From Aromatoleum toluvorans (GTDB taxonomy: Bacteria; Pseudomonadota; Gammaproteobacteria; Burkholderiales; Rhodocyclaceae), in NCBI RefSeq assembly GCF_012910905.1, contig NZ_WTVN01000001.1, forward strand, positions 186,001 to 250,000: a DNA stretch of 64,000 bases. Direction: 5' to 3'. A program made the position numbers and the translations under genes. Positions 2,209 through 51,314 of this stretch are shown piece by piece. A model generated the notes under the pieces. That model did no database searches. It was not told where the DNA came from and saw nothing but the letters and a program-made list of their open reading frames with translations. Numbering within the stretch: position 1 is the first letter of the stretch; every line of letters starts with the position of its first letter.

Positions 2209-2240
2209 TGAAGTTCTAAGGGTTCATGGAGGAACGTGAA

Positions 2241-2546: not shown

Positions 2547-3493
2547 AGTACGCGTGGATCGCCGGTGAGTGCGCCCGCTTTCCGATCGCACGGCTGTGCA
2601 CGCTGCTGGAGGTCTCGCGCAGCGGCTTCTATGCGTGGCGGCACCGTCCCGCGTCGGCGCGGGCACGCAGCGATGAACGGCTGGTCGTGGTATTGCGCGC
2701 GACCTATGCTCATCATCGCGGCAAGTACGGGCGGCCGCGGCTCACCCGCGATCTGCGTGAAGCGGGCTACCCGGTCAATCACAAGCGGATACGCCGGCTG
2801 ATGCTGCGCGAGGGGCTCGCCGCACGGCGGCGGCGCCGTTTCGCGCGCACGACCGATTCCCGGCATGCCCTGCCGGTAGCGCCGAACCTGCTCGAACGCG
2901 ACTTCAATGCGAGCGCGCCGAATCAGAAATGGGTGGCGGACATCACCTACGTCGACACTGCCGAAGGCTGGCTGTACGTCGCGCTGGTAATGGACTTGTT
3001 CAGCCGCCGACTGGTCGGCTGGGCGATGAGCGATCGCATCGACACCTACCTCACGACGGACGCGCTCGCGCTGGCGCTGGGCCTGCGCGGTCCGCCCGCC
3101 GGACTGCTGCACCATTCGGACCGTGGCTGTCAGTACTGTGCGCACGACTATCGCAAGGTCTTGGAGGACCGGGGCATTACGGTGTCGATGAGCCGGCGTG
3201 CGAACTGCTACGACAATGCCCCGATGGAGTCGGCCAACGGCACCCTCAAAGTCGAACGAGTCTATGACGAGCACTACGCCACACGCCAGCAGGCGATTGA
3301 CGATCTGACCGAATACATCGGCTACTACAACAGCGAGCGGCGTCACAGCGCACTCGACTACGACAGTCCGGTCCAATTCGAACAGAGGTGGAAAATGCAA
3401 CACCAGCACACGACACCGATTGGCACCGCAAGTTATCCACCGCCGCGCGCTCTGCCTGCGTATGAGGCGCCGCAGGCGCGCGCCCGTGGATAA
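2543..3493 (+). CDS. IS3-family transposase OrfB (DDE integrase core)
   Basis: A frame of 316 codons in the -1 phase relative to OrfA, with an HTH_21 region (HHRGKYGRPRL) and an rve integrase core. The catalytic triad is visible: Asp in WVADITYVD, Asp in LLHHSDRGCQY, and Glu in YDNAPMESANGTLK. The C-terminus has the usual YYNSERRHSALDY block. Length is normal for the family. It is probably translated mainly as the C-terminal part of the OrfAB fusion. The GTG at 2543 is only a nominal start. Confidence 0.92.
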   Translation: MKYAWIAGECARFPIARLCTLLEVSRSGFYAWRHRPASARARSDERLVVVLRATYAHHRGKYGRPRLTRDLREAGYPVNHKRIRRLMLREGLAARRRRRFARTTDSRHALPVAPNLLERDFNASAPNQKWVADITYVDTAEGWLYVALVMDLFSRRLVGWAMSDRIDTYLTTDALALALGLRGPPAGLLHHSDRGCQYCAHDYRKVLEDRGITVSMSRRANCYDNAPMESANGTLKVERVYDEHYATRQQAIDDLTEYIGYYNSERRHSALDYDSPVQFEQRWKMQHQHTTPIGTASYPPPRALPAYEAPQARARG

Positions 3494-3498
3494 CTTGC
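3428..3498. repeat. Long imperfect palindrome inside the IS right end
   Basis: Arms GCAAGTTATCCAC (3428-3440) and GTGGATAACTTGC (3486-3498) are perfect 13-bp inverted repeats, with further GC-rich complementarity between them. Each arm contains a DnaA-box-like TTATCCAC. It overlaps the end of OrfB and may be a transcription terminator or a host-factor site. Confidence 0.5.
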
Positions 3499-3509
3499 TG
3501 CCCAGTACC

Positions 3510-3542
3510 CTTCATGGCGTCCATCAAACGGGGACAGGGTCA
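3510..3542. repeat. Right terminal inverted repeat of the IS3-family element
   Basis: Ends ACAGGGTCA; on the minus strand it begins TGACCC. Its outermost TGA is read as a stop codon by the interrupted reverse-transcriptase gene. Confidence 0.9.
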
Positions 3543-4880
3543 ATACGGTGTCACGGCGCACTTGTCGTCGGAAAGCTCGAGTGTTTGCGAAGCGCCAAGT
3601 CGGACTCTGTGAGCTTCGAGCTCACGCTTCACGAACTCCTCCACTGCCTTCTGAACGTCGGCCTGCGCTATACCTCCGGAACCGTTGCGCGCCTCGACAA
3701 CAATTCTAATGTCATCAACGTAGCGGCAGTAGTCGTGGATCTTGACACCCCCGTCGAGCTCAAGCGCGTTGCCGGCCGCGCGTTGAAGCTCCCGGTCCAG
3801 ACCTACCAGATAGGCATTCGCAAAGAAGCCGGATGCGACCAGCCCCTGGGGAAGTCCCAGGTCGAGTCTTGCGGCCCCGTGCCCAAGAATCAGTTCCGCT
3901 TGGCCATGCTCTCCATCGCGCCAGGTCCAGTCGAGGATTCGGGCAGTACATTCCCAGAACGGTTCGTCCGATGCCATTCGGTCCGGCAGGCCAATGCTTT
4001 GCCGGTACTCGGTCTCCAGCCGCCGCAGCTCTTGCAGCAATGCGGCACGGTCCACCCGGTCGAAGAAGGACTTGATGTCGAGCGAGACAACGAACAGCTC
4101 TCTCCCCGGCTGCACCTGCGGCATGAGTTCGGTACAGACACGGCGTGGCCTTGCCAGAAACGCACGATAATCTTGAAAGTACTGCCGGTAGGTTCGGCTG
4201 TTACCCCACGAGAAGTGAGCACGGGCGCGCGCGTTTGGAGTCTCCACCCAACGGCAGTGCAGACGATTCCCATAGCTCACTACCCCGCGCTCACGGGTGC
4301 TCAGGACGTCCTTTTCGGTTGGGTCGCCCTGCGCCGTCTCGATGGCTTCCGCGAGGCACATCATTACCGCCGTTGCCAGAGTCTGGTCGCGAATGGACAA
4401 GTGTGCGAGAGGACGAAGCTTCTGCAGCATCGAGGTGTCGACGGCGTGAGAAGTGGTATCCACTTGCTTCGGCTTCGGACACCAGTCATCGAACGTCGGC
4501 TCCGAGCCGAGTTCGTCGATGTCCGAGTTCAGAAGATCTTCGAGCATCGGTGCCTCGGGCCGAGGGCGGAATTCCCACTTGGCATTCTTGGGGGCCGGAA
4601 CCAGTAGCAAGTCGTCCGGCTTGAAGTCGGAGCGGCTGATATCCTCCGCCCAGCGAACGAGCCGCTTCTCCAGATTGATGGTCGAGCTGTCGAGTTCCAG
4701 GACATCGGCGTACCAATTGTGTCGCCGAATGAACACATGCGACTTTTTCCAAGCCTGCGAGAGAACCACGACGTCCGAAAGGTAGCGACCTTGTGGAGCA
4801 AGCTCGAGATATTCCTCCCTAATAATCGACATCAATTGCTCTCTTGTTTGGTGAACATTGGTGACCTTTCCTAATCTCAA
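3540..4880 (-). pseudogene. 5' part of a DRT1-type (UG1-like) reverse transcriptase gene, truncated by the IS
   Basis: 446 codons ending in a TGA made by the IS end. A reverse-transcriptase palm is clear: motif A VVSLDIKSFFDRVD (264-277, Asp 268), LPQG (343-346) and the catalytic YVDD (387-390). The N-terminal 200 residues are not recognised. With the continuing frame at 1-2175 it would have been an RT-nitrilase of over 1,170 residues, the layout of defence-associated RT type 1, known to protect against phage. The nominal TTG start overlaps the stop of the upstream ATPase gene (TTGA); the ATG at 4832, preceded by AAGAGAG, is an alternative. The RT motifs survive, but the missing C-terminal half makes function doubtful. 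Confidence 0.85.
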
Positions 4881-6856
4881 ACGCCGGGCAGTTCAGGGAG
4901 CAACCTTCTCTTGAAGAGAAGGCCATCCTCCGCACCCGGCCGCAGCTCAAGCACCAGGAATGGAGCGGCCCGCAGTTGCTCGGGCGGCGGGGAGGTAGTC
5001 GTGACGATGTACTGGAAGGGGACACCTCCGTCGCGGCCGAGCTGTTCCTCGGCCTCCGCCACCATGAGCAAGAACTCACGGTAGAGCCGCTCGCTCATGT
5101 CCGCCTCTCTCGGGCAGTCATGCACGACGAATCCTGGGTGCTGGCTCGACGTCGACATGGCGGCATCCAGCAAGCTTGTGATGTCGCCCAACAGAACCTC
5201 AAGCACCTGATAGGCCTCGCCGCCAATATTGAGCTCGAAGGGGCGTATATCTGAATCGGGGCGGAACAGGCCGTACCCGCTCTCGCCGAGAAGGCGGCTG
5301 GCGACGATATGCGTCAAAGCTTTCACGGCTTCGCCGCGTTCGGACCGCTGCAAACGGCGTGCAATCACTTCTGCCTGCTTGTGGTCTGCCTCGGCGACAA
5401 GCTCGGCCCGGCGCGCCTTCGCACGCACCAGCTCTGCAGTACCATTGCCTTCGTCTCGTTGCCGGAGATGGAGTAAGAGTTCATTCCACTGATCCCGAAG
5501 GGAGTCGCGCTGGTTTTCGTTGGTCCAGCGCCTCATCTGCAGACGTCGCACTGCGGCGCGCTTCTGACTGACTACGGCTTCTTGCGCGGTGGCAGCAGCT
5601 TGGGCCACCGATGCGCGCTCGCTCGATTGCGCAAGTTCCAACCTGAACCGGGACATATCCGCTTCGGCACCTTGCCGCCTCAGACGCCAAGTAAGGCTGG
5701 CCGTGCTCCGACGCGAGACGATATGGTCGCATCTCGAGAAATCGACGTCGCCGTAACGGCAATGGCCGGCCAACCGGTCAAGTTCTGACAATTCGGCCGA
5801 AAGCCTGTTGAACTCTTTCTCGTTGTTGTCGACGAGCGTCTGCGCGACTTGACGTTCCATCTCGCGGATCTTTGCCACATGGGTCAAGTCGGCAAGCCGC
5901 ACCAGCTCGGGGGTGAGCAATTCCTCCGCTGCCGCGACTTCCCGCTCTATCTGTTCGTCGCCCTTCTCCCCATCGCGGAAACGCTGCTCCATTATTTCCT
6001 GCAGAGACGGCCCAACAGTGCCTCGAAATATCGGAACCTCGTCGTCCACGCCAAGCCGGGCACGGAGGTGTTGCTCCGCAATGGTCAAGGCATACGCGGG
6101 CAGCCGCTCGAGCTCCGGTAACTCCGCGTCAATCGCGTTCAACGCCGCTTGCGTTGCCTCGACGTCCCGCATTAGCACGTCGAGCTCACGATCATGCACA
6201 CCGAGTATGGACCGCACGAACATCGGGGGATCTTGGCGCGGTCGACGGAATCCGAGGCCATCGCCGTCGCGCCAATGAAAGAAAGCGTCGAACCGAGTCT
6301 TCTGGTCGCGGATGCACCACGCGAGCAAATGCCGCCACTCGAGAACCTGGTTGCTGCCAGGAAGCGTCGTTGCGGACAACTTGCCGATGAAGGCTTGATT
6401 CAGGCTATCGAGGAAGTCCTGAAAGCTTCCATCGAGTTCCCCTGCGAGCAAGGACTCGAGGCTATCTCCCCTGCCGGCCAGGGACTGCGCGTGCAAGCCG
6501 TAGGAACGATAGACGACCCAGGCAGTGCCATCGAGATGAACCTTGGCCGCTACGCCACCCTTTGGGAAGCCGGCCACTGCCTTCTCCCGCAATGCATTGA
6601 TTGAGGGCGCCTCGTCGCCAAGGCAGTAGCGCAGCAGCAGGCAGAAGGAGGTCTTGCCCACACTGTGCCCCGCACTCGCGAGACCCGAAGCGGCATCGGT
6701 CTCCGGCTCGCGGGCCCAAACCACGTTCACACCCGGCCGCAGGTTAACCGTGCGAACAACGACCAGTGGCTCCCTCGATTCCAGCAACCAAAGCCGCTCG
6801 ACCCACAGTCGCGGCTGAGTACGGTTTGCTTGGTGGTCGCGTAGCCAGTCGGTCAT
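4877..6856 (-). CDS. SMC/RecN-like ATPase with a DUF2326-like C-terminus, defence operon
   Basis: A 659-aa protein with a Walker A GHSVGKTS at residues 63-70, close to the N-terminus, a long coiled-coil middle (about 210-500) and, near the C-terminus, a Walker-B-like FVVHDCPREADMSERLY followed by QYIVTTT. This head-coil-head order is that of SMC/RecN/YydD-like ATPases. The ending resembles the DUF2326 family. The ATG at 6856 is preceded by GAAGGACG. It lies 11 bp after the methylase gene and its stop overlaps the RT gene start, so it is part of the same transcription unit. A DNA-sensing or loading ATPase role is inferred from the context, not shown. Confidence 0.7.
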   Translation of the reverse strand: MTDWLRDHQANRTQPRLWVERLWLLESREPLVVVRTVNLRPGVNVVWAREPETDAASGLASAGHSVGKTSFCLLLRYCLGDEAPSINALREKAVAGFPKGGVAAKVHLDGTAWVVYRSYGLHAQSLAGRGDSLESLLAGELDGSFQDFLDSLNQAFIGKLSATTLPGSNQVLEWRHLLAWCIRDQKTRFDAFFHWRDGDGLGFRRPRQDPPMFVRSILGVHDRELDVLMRDVEATQAALNAIDAELPELERLPAYALTIAEQHLRARLGVDDEVPIFRGTVGPSLQEIMEQRFRDGEKGDEQIEREVAAAEELLTPELVRLADLTHVAKIREMERQVAQTLVDNNEKEFNRLSAELSELDRLAGHCRYGDVDFSRCDHIVSRRSTASLTWRLRRQGAEADMSRFRLELAQSSERASVAQAAATAQEAVVSQKRAAVRRLQMRRWTNENQRDSLRDQWNELLLHLRQRDEGNGTAELVRAKARRAELVAEADHKQAEVIARRLQRSERGEAVKALTHIVASRLLGESGYGLFRPDSDIRPFELNIGGEAYQVLEVLLGDITSLLDAAMSTSSQHPGFVVHDCPREADMSERLYREFLLMVAEAEEQLGRDGGVPFQYIVTTTSPPPEQLRAAPFLVLELRPGAEDGLLFKRRLLPELPGV

Positions 6857-6867
6857 CCACGCGTCCT

Positions 6868-9800
6868 TCAGGCAGCGCCTCGCCCGCGCTGCGCCTCACT
6901 GCCCGGCGCGCTTTCTTCGCGCAGGGCCAGTCGACGTCGGGCGTCCAACTCCAACATCAGTTTCGCCAACTCTGCGTGCTCGGGACGGGTCCGTACATCC
7001 GGAGGTAGCGGGCTCGCGCCGGTCCCATAGACAAACGTGTCGCCCTTGCGTACTCGACGAACGGCGCCGCAAGTCTCCAGGCGGTGGACGAACGAGGGGA
7101 TCAACTGAAGGGCAGAGGGCAACATCAACGCGCCCGCGTCCTTTGCGAGAGCATCCAGGCGCAAGGCGTCCTTGGCGTCCAAGTGGATCTCGGCGTAACC
7201 GGCAGTTGTGGCGTGTGCCACGATGACCTGAATGTCCGCGATGGACATGCCATCCCGATGCTCCACCAGGAGGGCCGACACCAGCCCCGCCAGTTCCGCT
7301 TCGGCCTCGTCGCGAATCACTCCGTGGTCGCCATAGACAAGCCCTCTGTCATGAGAGGGGGCTTCTCGGTCCGCCAGTTCACCAGACTCCAATCGGTCCC
7401 AGGCATCGAGCACCAGCCGCCGCGTGCGGTACTCGCCGAAGGCGCGGACTTCGCCTTCCTTGAGTACGCGGAAGGTCTCGGAGGGGTAGTCGGCCCCCAT
7501 CACGTCAGCGGGATCGAGGATGTAGCGCAGTTCGACGCGGTTCAGACCATAGAGGCGGGCATAGTAGGCGTCCAACTCGGCGCGCAGTTTGGCGCGGCGT
7601 TCCGGGTTCCAGGGGAACGGAGCGCCGCGGTGGCCAAGGGCTTCGGCCCAGGCGCGCAGGTCGTCGGCGGTATAGGTGAGCTCGAGGACGCGGGGGACAA
7701 TGAAGTCGAGGGCTTGTGGCATGTAGCGTTCAGGCGGGAGCACCGGAAGCTGCTTCAACACATAGTCTGAGAGGTGCGTTCCCCCTAATGCCTGGCGTGC
7801 GGCAAAATCGAAAATCAGGGAGTTGAACTCCGCCAAGAGACAGGCTGCATACTTGGGTTCTGCGTCGAGCTTTGTGGCTACGCGTACGGTGTACGCGATG
7901 CCGACTCTCGGCATGATCGATGCGATGACTGTCCGCACCTTCTCCACTCCGGTAATGTCCCGCCAGCCCATTAGCCACCGCGGACTTCGGGCGTCCATCC
8001 AGGCATCCAACAGCGTCAGCAGCGCTGGTGCCAGGTTGGCCGTCTTCAAGGCGGTGGCGAGTTCCAGCAGTTCCGCGTCGGATAAGTGCACGTCCTGGTT
8101 CTGCGCGGCCCATTTCGGGAACTCGACGAGTGCCTTCTTTGTCGTCAGACCAGTGTCCAGTAGCGCCTGCGACAGCTGGGAAAAGCGCGCCTTCAGTTGC
8201 GCCTCGATCGGCGCGACGTGCGGTAAGACACGCTGTTGCGGCCACCCGCCCTCCTCAGGCAGGCCGGCGGCGCGGCCGAAGAGCTCGCCGGCCACCCAGG
8301 TCGCCAGAGCCCGCAGCAGGTCGGCCAACGCATCGTCGGCCACGGATGTCGAGAACGAGGGGGCGGCGCCATGCAATGCCAGCCAAGACTTGGCTACGCG
8401 CGAAGGCACGTGGGCGATGCGGGCCAGCACCTCGCGCTCATCGACCCAGTAGCGCGGGCGCACCGAGAACGCAGGATCGGCCTTCTGGGCCACCGTGACG
8501 TCCACTGTTTCAACCTCGACTGGCTTCCCGTCGGCATCGACGTAAGTTGCCCAGCGGTGGTCATATTGATGGATTTGTTTCCCCTCATAAACGGCCTGCG
8601 GCCTTCCACGAAGACCTACCGGTAGGCCATCAATCACTACGCCGTCGTTGATGTCATTGGTGAGGTGAAAGAGACCTTGTCGGATCTTTAGTCCCCACGG
8701 ATTCACCTCGGGCTTGAGCAAATTGCCATCGGCATCCGTGACCTCTTCCTCGATGAGCACGGGCGCAGCCCGGTAAAGCTTCTTGGTCAGTTCGGCATCG
8801 CGCTCACTACGGAAGATGGGACAGGTGCGCGTATTTGGGTTAATGAGCGAAAACTCCGCCGGAGTGAGCGTAAAGCGACGGGCGTTGTCGTGGATCTGGG
8901 TGGGCTGACGCGCGAAGAACACGAGTGTCGCGGGCTCGGTCGAGGGACTGCCGCCCAAGGTCAAGAGCGCAAATCGGAACGCATGATGCACCGAAGGAAA
9001 GACGAACTCCTCGTTTTCCAGACAGAGCATGGAGCACAGGTGTCCACCAACGGCCAGGTGCTCGAAGTAGGCCTTGGTGGAATCGTCGGTGGCAATGCCA
9101 GTCGGAACGATAAAGCCAGCACGCCCGTGGCACGCCGTGGCTTGCAGGAAGGTTTCTGCGAACAAGGCGTAGGTGTTGACATCTCCCACACCGGTGAGCG
9201 GGAAGCGCCGGCTGTCATGTGCAAAAAGGCTTGCTGCTTCCGCACCACGGCGCGCAGAGATGAATTCCTCATACAGCCGCATCTCCGCTCGGTTCGGCGG
9301 AGACAGCCCCTCGGACGCTTCGACGTCCGGGTACAGCGTGTGCAGCAGCATGCCCTGGCGCAGCAACTCGATCCGTTTCCCGCGCTCGGCCTTGTTCTTG
9401 GCCATGGCCACCAGCGGGCTGCGGCTGGCGAAGAACTCCTCCTCCTGCAGCTTGATCCGTTCCCACGGCGGGTTTCCCAGCATCACCGAGAAGCCGCCTT
9501 TGGCCGCCACCTGCGGAAAGGCAAGCCACCAGTGGAAGACCCCATGACTCATGCAAATCGCGCGGGCCGCGCCATCGACCTCCGGCTTCGCCGCCTGTCC
9601 GGTGAACAGCCCCCAGAGGTAGCCAGACAGGGGGATGCGAGGTGCATCGGCGGGCAGCTTGGGGGCGAGAAAGGCTGACACGTAAGTGTCGGCCAGTCTG
9701 GCAAGCACGCTTTGCTGTGCCAGTGACGAGGCTTGCGCCCAGGCTTCGCGCTTGGCGGCGATGCCCGCGATGCTGTCGTCGGCAAGGTGCTCAACTCTAT

Positions 9801-11880
9801 CCGCCTTGATCGCGAAACCGGCATTGGTAAACAGGTCCCCTGCGGCGATGGACTTCCAGCTCTTGAGGTCGGCCTTGTTCTGCTTCTTCAGTGCCGAAGC
9901 CGTGGCTTTGTCATCGCCCGACAGGACAGCGAAGGCTTCGTCCGGGATACCGCTCTCGAGCACTTTGGGGTCGAGCACGCCGAGCAGCGCATCGCCGCAC
10001 TGCAGGTGGTGGTCCAGGAAGGAAAGCGGCAAATCGGGCGTGTAGGCCTCGAGCCAAAGGGCGGTCTTGGCCAGCGCAATGGCCATGGGGTTCTTGTCGA
10101 TACCGAAGATGCAGCGACTGACGACATCGCGTAGCGCATGTCGGTAATCTGCCTGAGTAGGCGCTCCACCTGGTGCGCGCAGTTTGGCCACCTCGTCGGC
10201 CAGGCGGCGGGCGCCTGCCAGCAGGAAGTGCCCCGAGCCGCAAGCCGGGTCGCAAATGCTGAGGTCAAGGAGCGCTTCGACCGGCCGCTCGGGATTGGCG
10301 CGCAGCGTCTGCTCGATGACCGGGTCCAATGCGGACTTGATGAGTTCCTGCACCAGGCTGTCCGGGGTGTAGTACGAGCCGGTCAGCTTGCGGGTATTGC
10401 CCTTGGTGGAAGCTTTGTCTGCCGCGCCCTGGACCGAAACCACCTCGGCGCCATCGCCAGGGTCGCCCACAAAAGCCAGGCGCGCCGCGTGGGGCTGCGA
10501 CAGATTCTGGATGTCCGGCACCAACTCCAGCAGACTCTCGTAAACGCTACCCAACTCCTCCGGCCCCATGTCACGGTAATTCACCCGTGTCAGCCCAGTG
10601 GGCTCGCGGAAGTAGCCCAGTTGGAAGACGGCTGAGAGCAGCCAGCGGTTCTCGATGTCGGCATTTGTCAGATGCAGGCACTGGTCGGCGTCGAACAGGC
10701 CGCCGAGGGCGGGCAGACCAAGGGCGGGCTCGCCGCGTGACAGTCCGTCGAAGGTAATCGACAGCGCCTGCCACAAGTCGTGATGGGTATCGTGCGCGCC
10801 GCGGCGGGCGGCGCGCGAGCGCTGCATCGTGAGCGAGTATCCGTTGAGGTAGCGCTCGCGAACCGTCTTGTCGGTGTCCGGTGCGAAGACCAGAGGCAGT
10901 CCCGTCGAGCTGTCGCCCCGGTCCTCGACCGTGGCGAGGAAGATAAGCCGGTAGACCAGGCGCAGCAGTTCCTCGAAGAAGGCCTGTTTCGAGAGCGGCT
11001 CGACACCATCGCGCCCCTGCAGCGCATTACGCAGCGCTTCGTTATCCCTGTGACTGATGAAGCCCGTGCCCAGGGCACGCAAGGCTTCGGCGACGCCATC
11101 GCGCAGGCGGTCCCGAGCGCGCACGCCGGCTTCCTGCCCGGCGCCGCGCCACCGCTCCCAGGAGCAATCACCCGGCTCTGCGCCGGCTTGGCCGAAGCGG
11201 CTGGCATGAGCCAGCAGCCAGAAAGCTGTGAAGTCGGCGTAGAGCTCCTCGGTGAAGAGCGCTTCCAGGTCGACCTCGACGTACGCCGGGCGCGTCAAGC
11301 TCGGGTTGTCGCGCAGAATGCGCAGTGTCAGGCCGTTGCTGACGATGGCCCACAGCGAGTGGTCGGAGGCATTGAGCGCTTCCTGCGCCAGCATGAATGG
11401 CGAGCGGCGGCGAATGCGCCCGGTCTCGGGGCTGTGCTCGCCGAATCGCTCGGATGCCTCGTCCAGCCGCTGATCATGGGCGGCCAGGATGAGCGGCAGT
11501 CGCCCGTCGCGAGCTGAGCACCCGATGTTGTAGGTGTGCCCCGACGCGGCAACGCTGGCGCCATGCGCGAGGTCGGTGAAGCCCAAGACGTCGCGCAGCA
11601 GTGGCACGAGAAACTCGCGCACCGTGACGTCGTGGGCATTCACATCCTGCCGCTGGCGCAGAGGCTGGAGATCGGCCCACAGGTTCTGGGCAATCTTCCA
11701 GTAGCGCGCGATCTCGTCGCGCAGCTTCAGGCCTTTGGGCGTGCCGTAATGGATCTCGGTTTGTTCGGTCTGTTCGGGTGCCTGCAGCGTGGTCAGGCGC
11801 GACAGTTCGTCGGCGGGGATGAGGCCGCCCTCGATGCGGATGGCCTGGTAGGCAAGCTGTGTTGCATTGCGACGGGCCAT
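6868..11880 (-). CDS. Large adenine-specific DNA methylase, DrmMI/PglX/Eco57I-like
   Basis: A 1,670-aa protein. Gamma-class N6-adenine methylase motifs are plain: GSYYTPDSLV (motif X, about 501), DPACGSGHF (SAM-binding motif I, 544-552) and LGNPPWERI (catalytic NPPW, 803-806). The long regions either side probably give target recognition, as in type IIG enzymes, BREX PglX and DISARM DrmMI. It starts 3 bp after the SNF2 helicase stop, which suggests coupled translation. In DISARM and BREX the methylase marks host DNA as self; that role is inferred here. I saw no nuclease motif in the N-terminal 300 residues, so a stand-alone restriction-modification enzyme is less likely. Confidence 0.85.
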   Translation of the reverse strand: MARRNATQLAYQAIRIEGGLIPADELSRLTTLQAPEQTEQTEIHYGTPKGLKLRDEIARYWKIAQNLWADLQPLRQRQDVNAHDVTVREFLVPLLRDVLGFTDLAHGASVAASGHTYNIGCSARDGRLPLILAAHDQRLDEASERFGEHSPETGRIRRRSPFMLAQEALNASDHSLWAIVSNGLTLRILRDNPSLTRPAYVEVDLEALFTEELYADFTAFWLLAHASRFGQAGAEPGDCSWERWRGAGQEAGVRARDRLRDGVAEALRALGTGFISHRDNEALRNALQGRDGVEPLSKQAFFEELLRLVYRLIFLATVEDRGDSSTGLPLVFAPDTDKTVRERYLNGYSLTMQRSRAARRGAHDTHHDLWQALSITFDGLSRGEPALGLPALGGLFDADQCLHLTNADIENRWLLSAVFQLGYFREPTGLTRVNYRDMGPEELGSVYESLLELVPDIQNLSQPHAARLAFVGDPGDGAEVVSVQGAADKASTKGNTRKLTGSYYTPDSLVQELIKSALDPVIEQTLRANPERPVEALLDLSICDPACGSGHFLLAGARRLADEVAKLRAPGGAPTQADYRHALRDVVSRCIFGIDKNPMAIALAKTALWLEAYTPDLPLSFLDHHLQCGDALLGVLDPKVLESGIPDEAFAVLSGDDKATASALKKQNKADLKSWKSIAAGDLFTNAGFAIKADRVEHLADDSIAGIAAKREAWAQASSLAQQSVLARLADTYVSAFLAPKLPADAPRIPLSGYLWGLFTGQAAKPEVDGAARAICMSHGVFHWWLAFPQVAAKGGFSVMLGNPPWERIKLQEEEFFASRSPLVAMAKNKAERGKRIELLRQGMLLHTLYPDVEASEGLSPPNRAEMRLYEEFISARRGAEAASLFAHDSRRFPLTGVGDVNTYALFAETFLQATACHGRAGFIVPTGIATDDSTKAYFEHLAVGGHLCSMLCLENEEFVFPSVHHAFRFALLTLGGSPSTEPATLVFFARQPTQIHDNARRFTLTPAEFSLINPNTRTCPIFRSERDAELTKKLYRAAPVLIEEEVTDADGNLLKPEVNPWGLKIRQGLFHLTNDINDGVVIDGLPVGLRGRPQAVYEGKQIHQYDHRWATYVDADGKPVEVETVDVTVAQKADPAFSVRPRYWVDEREVLARIAHVPSRVAKSWLALHGAAPSFSTSVADDALADLLRALATWVAGELFGRAAGLPEEGGWPQQRVLPHVAPIEAQLKARFSQLSQALLDTGLTTKKALVEFPKWAAQNQDVHLSDAELLELATALKTANLAPALLTLLDAWMDARSPRWLMGWRDITGVEKVRTVIASIMPRVGIAYTVRVATKLDAEPKYAACLLAEFNSLIFDFAARQALGGTHLSDYVLKQLPVLPPERYMPQALDFIVPRVLELTYTADDLRAWAEALGHRGAPFPWNPERRAKLRAELDAYYARLYGLNRVELRYILDPADVMGADYPSETFRVLKEGEVRAFGEYRTRRLVLDAWDRLESGELADREAPSHDRGLVYGDHGVIRDEAEAELAGLVSALLVEHRDGMSIADIQVIVAHATTAGYAEIHLDAKDALRLDALAKDAGALMLPSALQLIPSFVHRLETCGAVRRVRKGDTFVYGTGASPLPPDVRTRPEHAELAKLMLELDARRRLALREESAPGSEAQRGRGAA

Positions 11881-11883
11881 GGC

Positions 11884-14715: not shown

Positions 14716-14718
14716 GGG

Positions 14719-17700
14719 TTATTCGTTCTTGCTGGCACCAAACAGGTCGGCGTGGGCGGCGAAGACAGCGGGCCATTCGCTGGTGATCCGCGAGAAGCGA
14801 ACCACCAGGTAGCCTTGCTCCTCAAGGCGCCGGGTGATGGCCTCGTCCTTGGCGTTCTGACCCGCGGCTTCATGGTGAGGACCGTCGATGAAGACTGCCA
14901 GCTGGTATTCGTCGTAGAAGAAGTCGGCGCTGGTCTGCGCCGAAGCGATGGTGTGCTGCCCGCGGTCGGGCTTGCGGTGGCCATGCTGCTCGACATAAGC
15001 CAGCCAGGCTTGCTCCAGCGAGCTGCCTGCCGTACGCGCCAGCTCGGCGCTGTGCTGCTCGGGCGCCCGCCCGTGAGTGCCGAGCTCGGCTTCGGACTGC
15101 GTGAGGCGGCATAGCATCTCGAGCACCAGGCCACCGGCCTCCTCGTCCTGGCGGTCGATGAGCGGGTGATCGGGTTGGTTGTAGTAGGAGAGCAGGCATT
15201 TGTAGCAGCCCGCTTCGCAGATGGGCTGATTGTCGTCGTCCAACTCCTCGTCGAGCGCAGCCTTGACCCACGGCTGTCCTTCGGCCGGCAACTTGAAGTG
15301 CATGATTTCAAGCGCCTCGGCGGCCACGGCCGCCAGCGCGCTGGGCTCGGTCGCGAGGCGGGTCAGGACGCCGGCACCGCCCTCTGCGGCCTCATAAAAC
15401 AGGATGGATTGCCGGTTGTCTCGCGTCGGCAAAGGTTCGGCCATCAGCTCGCTTTCTTCGAGCTGGTACACGGACTCAATGCCGCGCTTGAGCGCGTACT
15501 GCAGCGTGGTCAGCGTGGGTGCTGACAGCTCGCCCAGGCCGTGGTGGGGCCGGATGATGAGGATGTTGCGGCGGTCTTCGACGTAGGGAACGATGCGCTG
15601 CGGCGGCGTCTTGTCCGGCGGCGTGTCGTCTCCGTTGTCCTCGCCCGCATCATCGACCCCGCCGACCCAGTGGCCGGTAACCGGGTTCATCATGAACCCC
15701 AGCACCTTTTTGTCCTTGCGGCGGCGCCAGCCGAAGTTCATGCGCCAGACGGTGGCCGCCGGGCCGTACTGAAGCTCCAGCAGCGGACCTTGGGCATCCA
15801 GCACCTCGGTGGTGACCTTCTGCAGCCGCCCGTCCGACTCTGCGAATTGCAGGGTGGTCTGCATTTCGTAGCCTTGGCGCACCCGCTCTTCCTCGTTGGC
15901 GGTGATGCGTTCCGCGCGCTTGGTGGAGACGTTCTCGATGCGATAAAGGTGCTTGACCTCCTCGGCAGCCGCCAATGAGGCACCACAAGAGAAGCAGCGG
16001 TCGGCATCGCGCTGCGAACGGAAGTGACCATAGCCGCATGATGGACACAGGCGCGCTACCTCGGTGGCCAGGCGGGCGCCCTCGGTGACTTGGTCCTGAC
16101 TGGTGATGGTGAGTAGCGCTTTGGTGACCCGGTACTGGCTGCCCTCGTGATAAATGAGGCTGTACGGACCGAACTCACCCAGCGCCAGGAAGCGTGGACG
16201 GGAGAGAAAGCTCTCGCGTCCGATGTTGCCCCGGCGCGCGGGGATGTAGGCCAGCAGGGGAAGGCGCGGGAAGTTGTAGCCGGGCAGGAAGCCCTGGCTC
16301 GCCAGGTAGCGGTAGGTGTAGAAGTCCGAGTTGAAGGCGCTCTCGCCGGCGAGCAGCAGGTCGCGCTGCTTGCGTGCTTCGTTGTGACGCTGCTGCGCTT
16401 CCCGGCGTTCGCGCTCGCTGGCAGCCGGGTTGTTCTCGATCTTGAAGTTCAGCTCAATCTGCCGCGCCGTGGCGCGATACAGATCCCGCCATCGTTTCAG
16501 GGCTTCATCAAGCTCCTTGTACGCGCGCTGGAAAACGGTCTCCGGCCACGCCTCGCTGAACCAGGGTGCGCGCTGCGGGGTGAGCTCGTCTTTGAGCATA
16601 GCCAGTACCGCCAGCCCACGCTGGTGGGCGCGCTTCTTCGCCTCGGGCTTGTCCAGGTCGGCAGCCAGTTCCTCCAGGATGGGCAGGGCCTCCGGGTGGT
16701 TCATGTCGAGCAGGCCGCGGATGCTGCTGTCGAGCTTCTTGCCGGTTTCGGCCAGCCAGATCGCGTGCATGTGGCTCTGCACGAGTTCGCGATTGGCGAG
16801 GTCCAGTGTCGGCGGATTGACCTGCCCATGGACCATCCGCACCGGGTCACGGAAATAGTATTGGTCGTGCGGGCTCTGGCTCGCGCAGTACGTGATCGCC
16901 AACGCCGGTTGACCTGCTCGCCCCGCTCGGCCGCTGCGCTGGGCATAGTTGGCGGGTGTAGGCGGCACGTTGCGCATGTAAACGGTGTTGAGCGACGAAA
17001 TGTCGACGCCCAGCTCCATGGTCGGCGAGCAAAACAGGACGGGCAGCCATTCGAGCTCGCTACCTTTCTTGTCGCGCCACTCCTTGCGGTCCTTGTCGGT
17101 GAAGCGGAAACGCGCCTCGCGCTCGAGGCGGTCTTCTTGCTCGACTTGTGCCGTGTGCTCCCTCGCCTCGAAATCGAAGAGCTGGTGCTCGGGCTTGGCA
17201 AGCATTCCCGCGATGTTTCGGTACAGGTTGCGGAAAAATCGATTGTCATTCGATTGCTTCGGACTGACGCCGTCACCCGGGGTCCAAAGCAGAGCAGCGC
17301 CGTTCAGCTGCCAGCCTGTAACACCCACATCCGTTTCTTCTTGGCGAACGAGACCGTAGCTTTCGGCAGCCTTCAGTAGTGCATCGATGACGTTCGGGTA
17401 GGTGTCGTCCTTGATCTGGCCCACATACGGGTTGCCGCCGCCCCAGGTGCTGGGCTTCTTCAGTTCGCGCCCGATGCGGGAGCGGCTCGAACCAATGACC
17501 AGGAAATCGTCGAGGTTGAGCTTCCGACCACGAGGACCCACCTCCTCTTTCGGTCGGCGTGTGACGAACCAGCGCGCAGGAACGGGTCGCTCATCCTCCG
17601 TGAATCCCCAGGGCTCACGAAGGTTGGCATAGCTCTGCGTGCGTAATTGGTCGAGCTCAGTCCGATCGAGGTAGCGCGTGGCAATGCACAAGCCCTGGCG

Positions 17701-20040
17701 CATGGTCTCGAAAAGAACGCGCAACACTGCAGCGCGCTCTTGCGCAGTTGCGGCCTGAAGCACCTGAGGAGCATTGGCCCATTCGTCGGCATCTGCCGCG
17801 AGGTCGCCAATATCCTGATAGGTGATGCGGACGAGCCCGAGTTGTTCGAGGTTGGGGTTGTTGAAGCGCCAGCCGCGGCGTAGGTCGAAGAAACTCCGAT
17901 AGCCCAGGATTGCCCGCATGGCATCCTTGACTTGGCGCCGGGTATTACCCTTGACATCCGGCTGCTGCATATATTCAGCGCGAACCGCCGGGTCATCACG
18001 ATCAAAGCCCAGTGCCTCGAACACGGCATTGGCCACCTCCTTCTCCGACAGGGCCTCACCGTCGCCCTTGGTGAAGGCCGCCAGCAGCGCCGCACGCGTT
18101 AGCAGGACCTGCACAAAGTCGTTGAAATGGCCTGCCTGAAGCGCCGCGTCTTGGCGGTTGTCTGAGAAGCCCAAGACCTTCTTGGCCTCGGGACCGAGGT
18201 GTTCGTCCTGCTCGTACAGGTAGCGCAGCGATGCCAAAGTCAGCATCGTAGTTGCCGAGCTCCGCCCCTCCCCGGACAGCGATGTCAGTCGCAAGGAGTC
18301 CTTCCCCGAGGTTGCGTGTGTCGTACCGCAGCCGAGGCAGAACCGGAAGCTTCCCGGAATAAACCAAGCGCGCAGCCCGCCTTCGGTTGTCGTGACTCCA
18401 TCCGGCCGCAGCCTTGCCGCTTGTGGCACGTACTTACGGTAGCTCGACTTGATGCGCCACTCGCTGTCAGCGCGCTCCTCGACCCAAGTTTCCGGGTACC
18501 GGTCAAGTTCGGCCTCGTTCCAGGTGCCTGCGGTGTCCGGCATTAGAAAGCCGAACTTCACGCCATCATCCTCGTGTTGGCGTTCGTCAATGCTCCGTCG
18601 CTCAAAGGCGCGCCCCTCCGGCCCGTCGACGTCCCAAACGGGCACATACTCCTGGCCGCAGTCACGGCAGAAATGGAGGTTGTAGAGGTGGCGACTCCGG
18701 TCGCCGGCCACGAACTGCTGACCGTCGAGGGTGATCTCGCGTTTCCCAGGGGCCTCGAGGGTTGCATAGACCTTGCCGCCACCGGAGATAAACTGGTGCA
18801 GCTTGAATGCGAACAGAGGCTTGCCGGCGTCATCCGCGACACTGTAGGCACTCAGCAGGAACCGCTCCAGGTATCCCCGGCATACTTCTTCAGGCCGCCC
18901 CGAGGTCTCAGCCAAGAGGGTCGCCGCTTGCTTCAGCGTCTTGGGTCGCGCCCGTCTCGGCTTGCCACTTTCGTAGTCCAGGCCCAGCGTGAGTTCGACC
19001 CAAACTGACACGGGGTGCGTAGCCAACTCGTCGAAGCGGAGGTCCGGTACACCTGCATCAATCGCAGCGGCCAACTTTGGGGCGACGGTCTTCAGCGTTT
19101 CCGCTGCGGGCGTCACGCGCTGCAGGGTTTCGGTGACGATGTTATGGCTGGGAATGGCGGTGCCGAAGAGCCGCGTGGCCACTTTGGCGACGGCGGCGTT
19201 GCGTTCCATCTCCGTGCCATCGGTCGCCATCGTCGCAGAGGTGCCGATGCACACCAGTTTGTCCCCGAGGGCCTCGCGAACACGGCGAACCAGCAAGGCT
19301 ACATCGGCCCCCTGGCGCCCGCGATACGTATGTAGTTCGTCCAGAACGAGGAAGCGCAGCCCTTTGGCATTGCGCATCACCGCCTTGTCGATGTCGTTCT
19401 GCCGCGTCATGAGCAGTTCGAGCATCATGAAGTTGGTCAGCAGAATATCGGGCGGATTTGCAGCCATCGCTTCGCGTTCTGCGTCATCCTCCTGGCCAGT
19501 GTAACGGCCGAAGGTGACCGGCCGCCTGCCGGGCTCGCTGCCGAGGAATTTCTTCAATTCCTCCAACTGGCTGTTCGCCAGTGCGTTCATCGGATAGATG
19601 ACGATGGCACGGGTCCGCGGCTCCGAGGCGGCCAGCTTCGCCTTCAAACAAGCATCGACGATGGGGATGAAGTATGAAAGCGACTTGCCTGAGCCGGTGC
19701 CGGTGGTCATCACATAGCTTTCACACGCTGCGGCGAGGCTGATAGCTTCTTGCTGGTGAGTGTGAAGAGGCAACGGAACGCCGACGGATGACTCACTCTT
19801 GCCCAGGCGAAAAATCTCCGCGCACTGGGGATGTAGTTGCCCGGCTTCCACGAGCTGTTGAACGGTCCCGCCCGGCTTGAAATTCGGGTTGACCTGAATG
19901 AGTGGCTCGGGCCAGTACTTTTGCGAGTCGTACGCCTTGGTGACGTACGACTGTATGTCTTCGGCCTTGATGCGCGTGAAACTGCGGGTGAACTCCGAGT
20001 ACTCGTTGACGATGTGCTGGCGGAAATCGAAGACGTTCAA
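14719..20040 (-). CDS. Giant DEAD/DEAH helicase with DUF1998 and a C-terminal Vsr/DUF559-like nuclease domain, DruE-like
   Basis: About 1,773 aa. Motifs: Walker A MTTGTGSGKS (111-120), LVLDELHTY (231-239), GTSATMA, then PTMELGVDISSLN and QRSGRAGRAGQP (motifs V-VI). The C-terminal third has a zinc-ribbon-like CPSCGYGHF...CFSCG and the DUF1998/MZB signature (ILFYEAAEGGAG, CEAGCYKCLLSYY). The last 70 residues, with LAVFIDGPHHE, a following Asp and GYLVVRFS, resemble the DUF559/Vsr endonuclease fold. Size and order match DruE of Druantia; DISARM splits comparable domains over DrmA and DrmB. The frame is open to 20271, which would overlap the AbiEii gene; I prefer the TTG at 20040, preceded by AGGGGGG. 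Confidence 0.8.
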   Translation of the reverse strand: MNVFDFRQHIVNEYSEFTRSFTRIKAEDIQSYVTKAYDSQKYWPEPLIQVNPNFKPGGTVQQLVEAGQLHPQCAEIFRLGKSESSVGVPLPLHTHQQEAISLAAACESYVMTTGTGSGKSLSYFIPIVDACLKAKLAASEPRTRAIVIYPMNALANSQLEELKKFLGSEPGRRPVTFGRYTGQEDDAEREAMAANPPDILLTNFMMLELLMTRQNDIDKAVMRNAKGLRFLVLDELHTYRGRQGADVALLVRRVREALGDKLVCIGTSATMATDGTEMERNAAVAKVATRLFGTAIPSHNIVTETLQRVTPAAETLKTVAPKLAAAIDAGVPDLRFDELATHPVSVWVELTLGLDYESGKPRRARPKTLKQAATLLAETSGRPEEVCRGYLERFLLSAYSVADDAGKPLFAFKLHQFISGGGKVYATLEAPGKREITLDGQQFVAGDRSRHLYNLHFCRDCGQEYVPVWDVDGPEGRAFERRSIDERQHEDDGVKFGFLMPDTAGTWNEAELDRYPETWVEERADSEWRIKSSYRKYVPQAARLRPDGVTTTEGGLRAWFIPGSFRFCLGCGTTHATSGKDSLRLTSLSGEGRSSATTMLTLASLRYLYEQDEHLGPEAKKVLGFSDNRQDAALQAGHFNDFVQVLLTRAALLAAFTKGDGEALSEKEVANAVFEALGFDRDDPAVRAEYMQQPDVKGNTRRQVKDAMRAILGYRSFFDLRRGWRFNNPNLEQLGLVRITYQDIGDLAADADEWANAPQVLQAATAQERAAVLRVLFETMRQGLCIATRYLDRTELDQLRTQSYANLREPWGFTEDERPVPARWFVTRRPKEEVGPRGRKLNLDDFLVIGSSRSRIGRELKKPSTWGGGNPYVGQIKDDTYPNVIDALLKAAESYGLVRQEETDVGVTGWQLNGAALLWTPGDGVSPKQSNDNRFFRNLYRNIAGMLAKPEHQLFDFEAREHTAQVEQEDRLEREARFRFTDKDRKEWRDKKGSELEWLPVLFCSPTMELGVDISSLNTVYMRNVPPTPANYAQRSGRAGRAGQPALAITYCASQSPHDQYYFRDPVRMVHGQVNPPTLDLANRELVQSHMHAIWLAETGKKLDSSIRGLLDMNHPEALPILEELAADLDKPEAKKRAHQRGLAVLAMLKDELTPQRAPWFSEAWPETVFQRAYKELDEALKRWRDLYRATARQIELNFKIENNPAASERERREAQQRHNEARKQRDLLLAGESAFNSDFYTYRYLASQGFLPGYNFPRLPLLAYIPARRGNIGRESFLSRPRFLALGEFGPYSLIYHEGSQYRVTKALLTITSQDQVTEGARLATEVARLCPSCGYGHFRSQRDADRCFSCGASLAAAEEVKHLYRIENVSTKRAERITANEEERVRQGYEMQTTLQFAESDGRLQKVTTEVLDAQGPLLELQYGPAATVWRMNFGWRRRKDKKVLGFMMNPVTGHWVGGVDDAGEDNGDDTPPDKTPPQRIVPYVEDRRNILIIRPHHGLGELSAPTLTTLQYALKRGIESVYQLEESELMAEPLPTRDNRQSILFYEAAEGGAGVLTRLATEPSALAAVAAEALEIMHFKLPAEGQPWVKAALDEELDDDNQPICEAGCYKCLLSYYNQPDHPLIDRQDEEAGGLVLEMLCRLTQSEAELGTHGRAPEQHSAELARTAGSSLEQAWLAYVEQHGHRKPDRGQHTIASAQTSADFFYDEYQLAVFIDGPHHEAAGQNAKDEAITRRLEEQGYLVVRFSRITSEWPAVFAAHADLFGASKNE

Positions 20041-20101
20041 GCGTAGCCCCCCTGCGTCTTTTTGGGTCGTAGGCGCATCGGAGCATGACCTCGTACGATC
20101 A

Positions 20102-21529
20102 TCATTGGTACCTGGTCCCCACCAGCCAACCCGTTCTTCCTGAACATGGCCATCCCTGCTCGGTCTTGTGCGGCCGAAGCGTCGAGTCGGACGTCTTGCG
20201 CTCGAACTTGCGACCGCACACCCCACACTGATAAATGAACGTCGGTCCATGCGCCTGGAAGGCGGACGCACGGGCAGAGGATCGAATCGGCTGCGTGCGA
20301 CGGATTACGCTGCTGCCTGCACTCCGTGCGGCTGGCTGAATCGGTCCCGTCTCGGTCGGAGTAAGTTCGACGGCGTAACGCGGCGTGAAGGCCTGCGATG
20401 TCGCCTGCGCGCTCTCGATGCGGTCGAGCCGGTAGCTGCGCGGCTCGCCGGTATCGGTCTTGATCGCGTACAGCAGGATGTCGCCGACTTGCGTGCGCCG
20501 CAAGGAATACGGCTCGATGCGGCGAATGCTGCGTTGGTAGCCGAGATCGACGCAAAGATGATTGGAAGCAGCGAAGCGGATGATCTCGAGATACGACGAT
20601 CCGGCTAGACCCTGGCGCCGTAGCGTTCCGACGGCCGGCCTGAACACGATCTCTTCGGCCGCGATCGGCGCGGTCGAGGGTTCGGCCGTTGGTGCACCAC
20701 CCTGCAGCCAATCGAAGAACTCCGGCAGCGCGGCCCAGTAGCTTTCGAATGGCGGCAGCATCGGCAGTTGATGCCCAAGCATTGCCTGCCAGTCGCCACG
20801 CAGTTCGTCAGTGGCGCCGGCCAGACTCGCGAAGGTCGGTACCTCGATGCGCTTGAACGCGCACTTGCTTCTCAGGACATTGAGGACGGCATGCGCCGCC
20901 GGCCGGAACTCGCCATTTCGGAACAGGTTGATCACGTCGTATAGGTCGCGCGGCCGGCTGCGCTCCGCGAGGGCGCGCACTTTCTCGGCGAAGACTTCCT
21001 CATACGCGTAGCAGCGCGCCGTGATGCCGCCTTTGGGCATATCGCTGTAGGGGTGCCCTACTTGACGCTCGACCGGCGGCAGCACGAGCACCTCGTCGAC
21101 CGTCAGGTCCAGCTTGACTCGAGCAGGGTCGCTCGAACGGCGGAGTGGCCCGCGATAGTAGATGCGGCCTTCGCAGCTCAGTCCGTTGCGCTTGTTGCGG
21201 TAGACGTCAAAACGCAGCCGGTCCACGGAAATCTCAAGGCCGATCTCGTCGTACAGAGCTTCGGCGACTTGGGTGAAAGCGCCCCTGAGGAAGCCGTCGT
21301 TCATCTGCGCTTCCGCAGCGATCGTGAAATCCAGGTCTTCCGAGAACCGGTAAGTCTCGAAATAGCACTTCTTCAGGCACGTCCCACCCTTGAAGGTCCA
21401 GGCGCCGGCCAGTTCCTCGTTACGGTAGATGCCGGCCAGGAGCCAAGCGAGGACGTAGTCCTTCTCGACGACCTCGGGCGCGAGCGAGAGATCGGTGGCG
21501 ACTTCGAGGATCTCCGACCGATCAATCAT
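20102..21529 (-). CDS. AbiEii/AbiGii-family nucleotidyltransferase toxin with WYL-like and zinc-finger-like C-terminal extensions
   Basis: A 475-aa protein. The N-terminal half is a nucleotidyltransferase of the AbiEii type: FKGGTCLKK (47-55) and SEDLDF (63-68) supply the GG and Asp-x-Asp-like active site, and RPRDLYD (192-198) is the usual later block. AbiEii toxins are thought to modify RNA or nucleotides and block growth during infection. Residues 310-390 (IIRFAASNHLCVDLGY, RRIEPYSLRR, SYRLDRIES, FTPRYAVEL) look like a WYL ligand-sensing domain, and 435-462 (CGVC, then H454, C462) like a small zinc site. The start overlaps the antitoxin stop by 8 nt. The helicase gene follows 61 bp later on the same strand. 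Confidence 0.85.
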   Translation of the reverse strand: MIDRSEILEVATDLSLAPEVVEKDYVLAWLLAGIYRNEELAGAWTFKGGTCLKKCYFETYRFSEDLDFTIAAEAQMNDGFLRGAFTQVAEALYDEIGLEISVDRLRFDVYRNKRNGLSCEGRIYYRGPLRRSSDPARVKLDLTVDEVLVLPPVERQVGHPYSDMPKGGITARCYAYEEVFAEKVRALAERSRPRDLYDVINLFRNGEFRPAAHAVLNVLRSKCAFKRIEVPTFASLAGATDELRGDWQAMLGHQLPMLPPFESYWAALPEFFDWLQGGAPTAEPSTAPIAAEEIVFRPAVGTLRRQGLAGSSYLEIIRFAASNHLCVDLGYQRSIRRIEPYSLRRTQVGDILLYAIKTDTGEPRSYRLDRIESAQATSQAFTPRYAVELTPTETGPIQPAARSAGSSVIRRTQPIRSSARASAFQAHGPTFIYQCGVCGRKFERKTSDSTLRPHKTEQGWPCSGRTGWLVGTRYQ

Positions 21530-22319
21530 CGGCGGCCTCCTGTTTCCAGCTTTCCGGAACCCATAGCCGCCACCGGCGGATCAGGCGCGGGCAAGGCAGC
21601 GCGGGATCGAGTTTCGCGTTCCCCATGGTGAGCCGCTCGGCGCAAGCTGCGATCAGCGCATTCGGCGCGCTGGCACGCTCCGCGAGGAAACCCAGGCGCT
21701 TGAACACCGCGCCGTTGCCGATTCTTTCGGCATAGCCAACAAGCGTTTCCGGCGACGCATCGGGTCGCTTCAGATAGCTTTGAAGGCAGTCGACGACGTG
21801 GCGGACACCTCCGCCCGATGCCGGGTCGTCGAGCATGTCGATGACGGTCCTGTGCGGATCGGACACCTGAAGCTTCGTGCGCCCGCGCCAGAGGACGCGT
21901 GTGCCGAATAACTTGTCCTTGGCCACATGCCGGAGGACGAATGTCGTGCCATGGACAATGTGCGTCTTCCGGCGGACGGGCTGGGCCGTGCAGACAAAGA
22001 CGCTGCGAAACAGTTGCTCGGTCAGGTCCCAGTGATGTGCGGCGCTGGCGCCGCCGACATAGGCGGTACCGAACAACTCCGGAATCAGTGTCCACGGGTC
22101 TTCGATAACCTGATCACCGGGCGTGGAAGCGAGCGGTACGGGGGCATACAAGCCGCGCTGAACGCGCGCAATCCAGCCCTGCCGCTGCCAGCGCGCGAGG
22201 ACCTTTGCCGCGGCGCTGCGGCCGACCCCGAGAGCCTGCGCGGCATCGTCGACGGTAATCAATGTCCGCCCCCCTCGTAGCACGGCAGACAGACGGCGGC
22301 GTCCTTCAGTCTTCAGCAT
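21522..22319 (-). CDS. AbiEi-family antitoxin (type IV TA)
   Basis: A 265-aa protein with an N-terminal winged helix (ITVDDAAQALGVGRSAAAKVLARWQ, quoted here only as the region at about 22-46) followed by RGLYAPVPL, the start of the AbiEi core, and TAYVGGASAAHHW. AbiEi proteins repress their own operon through this winged helix and neutralise AbiEii without binding it stably. The 8-nt overlap with the toxin gene (21522-21529) points to translational coupling. Length agrees with the family. The Shine-Dalgarno before the ATG at 22319 is weak, so an alternative start is possible. Confidence 0.87.
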   Translation of the reverse strand: MLKTEGRRRLSAVLRGGRTLITVDDAAQALGVGRSAAAKVLARWQRQGWIARVQRGLYAPVPLASTPGDQVIEDPWTLIPELFGTAYVGGASAAHHWDLTEQLFRSVFVCTAQPVRRKTHIVHGTTFVLRHVAKDKLFGTRVLWRGRTKLQVSDPHRTVIDMLDDPASGGGVRHVVDCLQSYLKRPDASPETLVGYAERIGNGAVFKRLGFLAERASAPNALIAACAERLTMGNAKLDPALPCPRLIRRWRLWVPESWKQEAADD

Positions 22320-38379: not shown

Positions 38380-38380
38380 C

Positions 38381-51303: not shown

Positions 51304-51314
51304 GAGACGTTCCC

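Follow-up and report, generated by a model that had tools for sequence, protein, structure and literature searches.

A stretch of 64,000 nucleotides from Aromatoleum toluvorans (positions 186,001 to 250,000 of contig NZ_WTVN01000001.1; hereafter the window) carries an operon of which the first three genes, encoding a YprA/DUF1998 helicase with a nuclease tip, an SNF2 helicase and an N6-methylase, fit by their sequences the defence system ARMADA type I. This core is followed by an LmuB-like ATPase, a reverse transcriptase (RT) of the DRT1 type and, beyond the window, an HNH nuclease; the interval between ATPase and nuclease is referred to as the cargo bay. In all evaluable ARMADA-I methylases measured, a C-terminal tail of the methylase is present if and only if the ATPase is. 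On balance we favour the reading that the operon is an ARMADA type I system with a plug-in, in which the tail would dock the ATPase and the ATPase would control the HNH nuclease and/or the effectors of the bay. The core has already been published, and the extension by ATPase and bay together with the tail rule constitute the new part.

The ARMADA type I core

The features of the operon and its upstream neighbours are as follows (ORF, open reading frame; AF2, AlphaFold2).

14719..20040 (ORF to 20271), minus strand: YprA-family helicase, ARMADA type I (DEAD, Helicase_C, MZB/DUF1998)
14791..14931, minus strand: DUF559 nuclease match, which we take to be Vsr-like, at the helicase C-terminus (ORF residues 1781-1827; Pfam E 1.1e-4)
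11884..14715, minus strand: SNF2/RapA-type helicase, BrxHII-like (Pfam SNF2-rel_dom, Helicase_C)
6868..11880, minus strand: PglX/DrmMI-type N6-adenine methylase (PADLOC DrmMI 187.9 bits; Pfam Eco57I, N6_Mtase)
6868..7371, minus strand: methylase tail, residues 1504-1670, only present with the ATPase
4877..6856, minus strand: LmuB-like coiled-coil ABC ATPase (AF2 model, Foldseek; PADLOC LmuB 6.7e-6)
3540..4832, minus strand: DRT1 reverse transcriptase, first part with the RT domain (PADLOC Drt1a 475.5 bits, model positions 2-351)
2169..3549, plus strand: element of IS3-family type that interrupts the RT gene, ends approximate (inverted repeats; transposase ORFs with HTH_Tnp_1 and rve)
1..2190 and on to C29:185485 beyond the window, minus strand: DRT1, second part with the nitrilase (PADLOC Drt1a 892.3 bits, model positions 351-1176)
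20102..21529, minus strand: AbiEii-like gene, neighbour (PADLOC AbiEii 588 bits; weak WYL match near the C-terminus, Pfam 4e-5)
21522..22319, minus strand: AbiEi-like antitoxin gene, upstream neighbour (PADLOC AbiEi 381.5 bits)

According to the ORF calls, the five genes of the run (helicase, SNF2, methylase, ATPase, RT) and the AbiE pair lie on the minus strand throughout. The gaps measure 3 bp between helicase and SNF2, 3 bp between SNF2 and methylase and 11 bp between methylase and ATPase, while AbiEi and AbiEii overlap by 8 bp. The RT frame (3540-4880) overlaps the ATPase by 4 bp when read from its TTG and follows it at 44 bp when read from ATG 4832, the codon that corresponds to the start of its relatives. 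The helicase probably starts at the TTG at 20040, 61 bp behind AbiEii, because its relatives start at that codon, which would give a protein of ~1,770 residues. Apart from the split DRT1, the frames of the operon are open. The five adjoining, co-directional genes with gaps of 3-11 bp or an overlap that a first-pass annotation had reported are therefore real (the RT lying 44 bp behind if ATG 4832 is used). The range that it gave, 4832..22319, holds everything from AbiE to the ATPase and stops at the RT start codon, which leaves the RT itself outside. The genes need renaming as YprA, BrxHII-like and LmuB-like.

The order of the first three genes is that given for ARMADA type I in the main text of Bell et al. 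(2025 preprint, PMC12458937), namely a YprA-like helicase, a BrxHII-like helicase and a PglX-like methylase. The Vsr-type nuclease domain placed there at the C-terminus of the YprA helicase has a counterpart in the DUF559 match of the window (22.5 bits versus a Pfam cut-off of 20.6). ARMADA type II, for which that text demonstrates phage protection, has a GajB-like helicase fused to RelE behind the core and YprA in third place, whereas the window has neither, judging from gene order and profile matches. Relative to the type I description in the same main text, the LmuB-like ATPase, the methylase tail, the HNH nuclease and the bay are additions. More specifically, the terms reverse transcriptase, RT-nitrilase, AbiE, SMC and accessory gave no match in a search of this main text, and the word ATPase appears in its reference list only. 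In the open-access literature and a few subscription papers, no text was found that reports the ATPase, tail, bay or RTs in ARMADA.

Within 300 genomes of the window's taxonomic order, the methylase had a match at E<=0.001 in 57, many of them short, and a match of at least 554 bits in 12, its own genome included; YprA, SNF2 and methylase occurred together in 12 of the 18 other genomes whose places were fetched. At class level, 7 out of 369 genomes had a match to the SNF2 helicase at E<=1e-100, the flanks being short. The best PADLOC model of this helicase, covering its whole length, is named DpdE (699.6 bits, versus 282.8 for DrmD and 206.1 for BrxH), a name that may mislead the annotation of ARMADA loci.

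The suggestion of a hybrid between DISARM and Druantia was not borne out, as all three core genes agree with ARMADA type I as published (main text). DISARM class 1 has a homologous methylase (DrmMI) and SNF2 helicase (DrmD), but it has a separate DrmA helicase, DrmB (DUF1998) and DrmC (PLD), whereas the window has the helicase and MZB in one protein. Membership was rejected since separate DrmA, DrmB and DrmC were not found among the operon proteins scanned; these proteins had no PLD match either. In Druantia, DruE, which is of the same YprA family as the window helicase, is partnered by DruABCD, DruMFG or DruH, and membership was rejected since no partner appeared among the best matches of the operon proteins scanned. 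Nearest in idea are the BREX/DUF499 systems with auxiliary nucleases (PMC12839542, main text), where backup nucleases and OLD-ABC/HNH dyads are found in a methylase-helicase operon, but their core is a different one; that main text never uses the terms YprA, DISARM or reverse transcriptase. Membership in a DUF499-type BREX-related system was rejected as well, Type-1 BR being built on a DUF499 ATPase according to the same text and the window ATPase being LmuB-like.

Some further variation in the core was observed. In eight loci the SNF2 helicase and the methylase are separated, either by Phd/VapC (L032, 13349-13983) or NYN (L036, 13291-14004) genes or by genes or gaps of >1 kb (L077, L083, L105, L109, L110, L118), which may represent a second cargo slot. 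L089 and L123 are 97% identical in SNF2 and 89% in the tail, and just 10-30% in methylase residues ~900-1450, which looks like a swap of the target-recognition part. McrBC-type genes (or EVE, DUF2357 genes) lie downstream of the ARMADA-I methylase in loci from Deinococcus, Nocardioides and a Chloroflexota plasmid (L037 20736-24673; L160 16008-19917; L159 16411-21967), none of which gave an HNH match.

The ATPase and the methylase tail

Genome contigs were scanned with a profile of the ATPase alignment and the best 80 matches were kept, which gave 74 loci (L061, L063 and L110 are probably the same records as G286, G223 and G237). An ARMADA methylase lies directly upstream of the ATPase in 63 of them, as a single frame that ends within 700 bp of the ATPase in 61 (L093 being cut by a contig end) and as a split gene in two (L086, L105). 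Among the remaining loci, the contig ends too soon in 4, and 7 are not linked to an ARMADA methylase.

In the two samples measured, the length of the methylase separates the two states completely. With methylases below 1300 amino acids (aa) excluded (L086, L093, L105), the chain continues for 145-182 residues beyond window residue 1503 in 61 of 61 ATPase-bearing methylases, that of the window included, whereas it stops 0-7 residues beyond that point in 10 of 10 ATPase-less ones. A second, overlapping sample of 28 loci, collected by methylase similarity, gave a tail of 154-179 residues in 6/6 methylases with ATPase and -4 to 23 residues in 17/17 evaluable ones without it (the others being 1 broken frame and 4 without a C-terminal methylase match). 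L044, with its early frame end, is counted among the 10 and is non-evaluable in the second sample.

Moreover, the tail follows the ATPase in its divergence. Over 1596 pairs from 57 loci, tail identity tracks that of the ATPase with a Spearman coefficient of 0.80 (partial 0.73 when controlling for the core), and that of the core less closely (partial 0.32 when controlling for the ATPase). A direct example is provided by L125, where the methylase is ~70-80% identical to that of L061 up to residue ~1460, versus near 20% in the tail and 34% in the ATPase; its tail and ATPase are closer to those of L101 and L122, with a break at methylase residue ~1490. In terms of sequence, tail and ATPase have been swapped as a unit. 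On a tree of the helicase with 48 chosen rows, obtained by a quick search and including several long branches, the presence of the module changes 13 times, with 12 changes forced by supported branches. This is about as many as with shuffled labels (mean 13.6), and therefore the module turns over fast. The tree provides 10 independent contrasts of module presence (L044 and L037 left out), for which each tail was given the state of its ATPase, on the basis of the two tail samples.

The AF2 model of the window ATPase (mean predicted local distance difference test score, pLDDT, 86.9) retrieved YydD first in Foldseek (E 1e-15), followed at ranks 2-8 by seven chains of Lamassu complexes (2e-14 to 1e-8), ahead of Rad50 and SMC; the identification of these chains as LmuB is based on chain length and order and not on labels. 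PADLOC LmuB models were matched by 48 of 50 members of the ATPase family (best 5.2e-20), the match of the window ATPase itself being weak (6.7e-6), and a sequence search of the PDB returned mostly coiled-coil matches. By its predicted structure the ATPase is thus LmuB-like in fold. Lamassu (ABC-3C, LmuACB) shares this type of ATPase with the window operon, as judged from fold and family profile matches, but has a separate small LmuC gene, which the window does not, its methylase and ATPase genes abutting; the window ATPase is instead embedded in a methylase-helicase operon. The tail occupies the place of LmuC, without demonstrated homology to it. LmuB is seen as the controller of LmuA in Lamassu. 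According to PMC10586767, an SMC-like sensor releases the effector there, and HNH is among the effector domains listed for LmuA.

The tail itself is modelled with confidence (mean pLDDT 88.3), showing helices, a wing of two strands and a long helix at the end. Its best Foldseek matches, although non-significant, are winged-helix regulators, and since tail and ATPase are neighbours the tail might be a DNA-binding or regulatory domain of the methylase that travels with the ATPase through adjacency alone. We consider this unlikely, as no tail was present in the 10 and 17 ATPase-less methylases of the two overlapping samples, and the helicase tree offers 10 contrasts, with tail states taken from those measured samples.

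The cargo bay and its reverse transcriptases

An HNH nuclease is found downstream of the ATPase in 57 of the 74 loci, within 350 bp in 29 and with genes between in 28; 6 of the 17 loci without it have <2 kb of sequence left. The cargo bay is thus empty in 29 loci and loaded in 28. Two Mesorhizobium plasmids, found via the methylase, have methylase, 'SMC' and HNH genes in succession. The ORF picker kept the longest non-overlapping frames and the cargo clusters were named from representatives. In this way the 28 loaded bays were found to contain DRT1 (10), GmrSD (7), an AAA protein matching the HEC-03B model (5), RNA ligase (5), a UvrD-like 887-aa protein (4), HEPN-RES (3), PDC-S39 (3), a 561-588-aa family with a Schlafen AlbA_2 match (3), Mokosh MkoA (1) and PDC-M65B (1). 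The PDC names reportedly come from a preprint on defences embedded in other defences. At least one cluster had a clear PADLOC match in 22 of the 28 loaded bays. The other six hold just the UvrD-like protein with weak PADLOC matches (L100, L103, L119), HEPN-RES without a PADLOC match (L133, and L085, which also has a Schlafen-type gene) or nothing recognised (L087).

The bay of the window continues beyond its edge. The second part of DRT1 is an open frame from position 2190 onwards. Behind it, in the same orientation, come first a GmrSD_N-HNH gene of 412 aa (C29:184204-185442) and then the gene of an HNH_2 nuclease of 240 aa (C29:183469-184191). When each RT piece is scored by itself, both match one PADLOC Drt1a model, the first at positions 2-351 and the second at positions 351-1176. 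The window thus has both the RT domain and the nitrilase of DRT1, but not in one intact frame: between the halves lies the IS3-family element, with transposase ORFs at 2226-2546 and 2543-3493 on the strand opposite to the RT, bounded by imperfect inverted repeats (2169-2208 and 3510-3549). As the element splits the gene, the DRT1 layer is probably silent in this strain. In L065 (Polaromonas, 12953-16408), too, the RT is broken up, in this case by genes on the minus strand, two of them integrase-type; the near-identical RT of L080 has no such insert. In L123 only the beginning of an RT is left in the bay, which looks like a loss.

The bay RTs form two clades, each with 100/100 support. The first comprises L062, L063, L065, L076 and L080; the second comprises L070, L081, L101, L122, L125 and the window, and its sister is the RT of L170, which has no ARMADA genes. 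A single grouping of all bay RTs is rejected (approximately unbiased, AU, test, p=0.0016; two long rows excluded, some long branches remaining), and therefore DRT1 entered the bay at least twice. The window RT half is 75% identical to that of L070 and 36% to that of L062, whereas SNF2 and ATPase are 84 and 60% identical to L062 versus 77 and 50% to L070.

The RT had been read in the first-pass annotation as the coupled fifth gene of an operon with several defence layers. Its proposal to look for the same gene order elsewhere gave a positive outcome: all five genes occur in identical order in 10 of the 74 fetched loci, and therefore the association is not random. PADLOC, also proposed, matched the RT halves to Drt1a and the AbiE pair to AbiEi and AbiEii. 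The RT does not hold as an obligate part: it shares its slot with other cargo types and fills it in 10 of 28 loaded bays, it entered at least twice, it occurs without ARMADA in 10/10 places inspected outside the bays, and it is interrupted in the window. For the same reasons it is highly improbable that the five genes form one fixed system with the RT as essential subunit. The order conserved in 10 of 74 loci would agree with it, but 29 bays are empty, 18 loaded bays have no RT, the RT has two origins and it is interrupted in the window and in L065 (by integrase-type genes) and reduced to a remnant in L123.

A stronger competitor, to which we give less weight than to the plug-in but which deserves serious attention, is that the bay is a neutral landing strip, where independent genes share the transcription and mobility of the operon, ATPase and HNH still belonging to ARMADA. 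The variety of bay types is in line with this, as is the weak relation between RT and core identity (rho 0.25-0.27 over 55 pairs, versus 0.67 for SNF2 and ATPase). Moreover, in 10/10 places inspected outside bays DRT1 had no ARMADA gene within the 16-22 kb fetched. According to PMC13275509, DRT1 is a template-free, protein-primed polymerase with an abortive nitrilase, which can work without a second gene and is reported to protect on its own; the window DRT1 differs from it in its place in an ARMADA bay and in being split by the IS element. What does not agree with a neutral landing strip is the regularity of the slot. In the bays, 53 of the 57 ORFs with a length of at least 150 aa run in the direction of the operon (3 of the 4 exceptions sit inside the L065 RT, two of these being integrase-type), the RT is first behind the ATPase in 10/10 RT loci (-4 to 230 bp), as in the window, and DRT1 entered that same slot twice separately. 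Drt1b, present with ~18% of drt1 genes (PMC13275509), adjoins 3 of the 10 RTs that lie outside ARMADA, and none of the 11 bay loci gave a good match to it; these counts say little, and its absence was dropped as a special mark of bay RTs.

Surroundings, proposed mechanism and implications

The window holds further defence genes, all on the minus strand: a second SNF2-type helicase upstream of AbiE (23406-25694; weak DpdE/ZorD matches), a Mokosh pair (36940-43336; MkoA-like, 1651 aa, 2090 bits, and MkoB-like, 479 aa, 461.5 bits) and two genes matching PADLOC Hp2 and Hp1 (44971-47087; 137 and 217.5 bits). RepA_C, AcaB, TraI_2 and TraG/TraD-type genes are also present (32379-33449, 50158-51564, 55183-57336 and 60878-63019), which suggests that the window belongs to an integrative or conjugative element with several defence systems on board. 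Among 9 annotated plasmid loci in which the helicase comes first, a single one, L154 (Mesorhizobium AR02), has AbiE annotated upstream; its AbiEi and AbiEii (2302-3769) lie directly upstream of the ARMADA helicase, as in the window. A similarity search across the loci with the window AbiE proteins missed even this pair. Over the whole window, an Rfam scan gave 0 matches, a promoter scan 0 versus 2.5 expected and a search for terminator-like sites 13 versus 14.3 expected.

In the proposed mechanism, the PglX-like methylase would mark self DNA, and unmarked DNA would be restricted by the two helicases, SNF2 and YprA, together with the Vsr-like nuclease, functions that are taken from the published experiments on ARMADA type II. 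As an extension, the small folded tail of the methylase would dock the LmuB-like SMC ATPase, which may act as a second sensor or gate controlling the HNH nuclease and/or the bay effectors, as LmuB presumably does with LmuA. The bay would serve as an exchange site for backup effectors. The lineage of the window would have taken in a DRT1 reverse transcriptase-nitrilase, an abortive-infection enzyme, together with a GmrSD-like nuclease, and the IS3-family element would later have split DRT1, so that this layer is probably off in this strain.

Comparison of the loci by sequence establishes the gene identities, the conserved order, the bay, the co-variation and exchange of tail and ATPase and the two origins of the bay RTs. 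Nevertheless, several points weigh against the plug-in. Its basis is wholly comparative, docking, sensing, activation and phage defence being predictions. Seven of the 74 ATPase relatives have no adjoining ARMADA methylase. The tail had no significant structural or sequence match in Foldseek, PDB and Pfam searches, and therefore a link to LmuC is not supported by homology; as tail and ATPase are neighbours, plain linkage accounts for part of their co-inheritance. HNH also follows the methylase in 11 of 18 ATPase-less ARMADA-I loci (a further locus, L049, is cut) and is therefore not bound to the ATPase; it seems to belong to many ARMADA-I operons of proteobacteria as such and not to the ATPase unit. 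Finally, the loci compared lend no support to a dependence of the cargo on the ATPase.

More tentatively, the system may be an open platform, where the tail is an adaptor that recruits an SMC-type ATPase, the self-marking machinery licenses or restrains interchangeable bay effectors, and the tail-ATPase unit and the bay are swapped independently of the core. If true, this would be a modification-gated, Lamassu-like alarm inside a restriction-type system.

The analysis extends a recently described defence class by a module that is absent from its description (main text). The rule that links the tail to the ATPase is testable, and it suggests physical contact of the DNA modification machinery with an SMC-type sensor. 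The recurrent genes of the bay, such as the RNA ligase with the AAA protein, HEPN-RES and the UvrD-like 887-aa protein, among others, are candidate new antiphage genes, and the two separate recruitments of DRT1 raise the question whether an outside sensor can run defence-associated reverse transcriptases.

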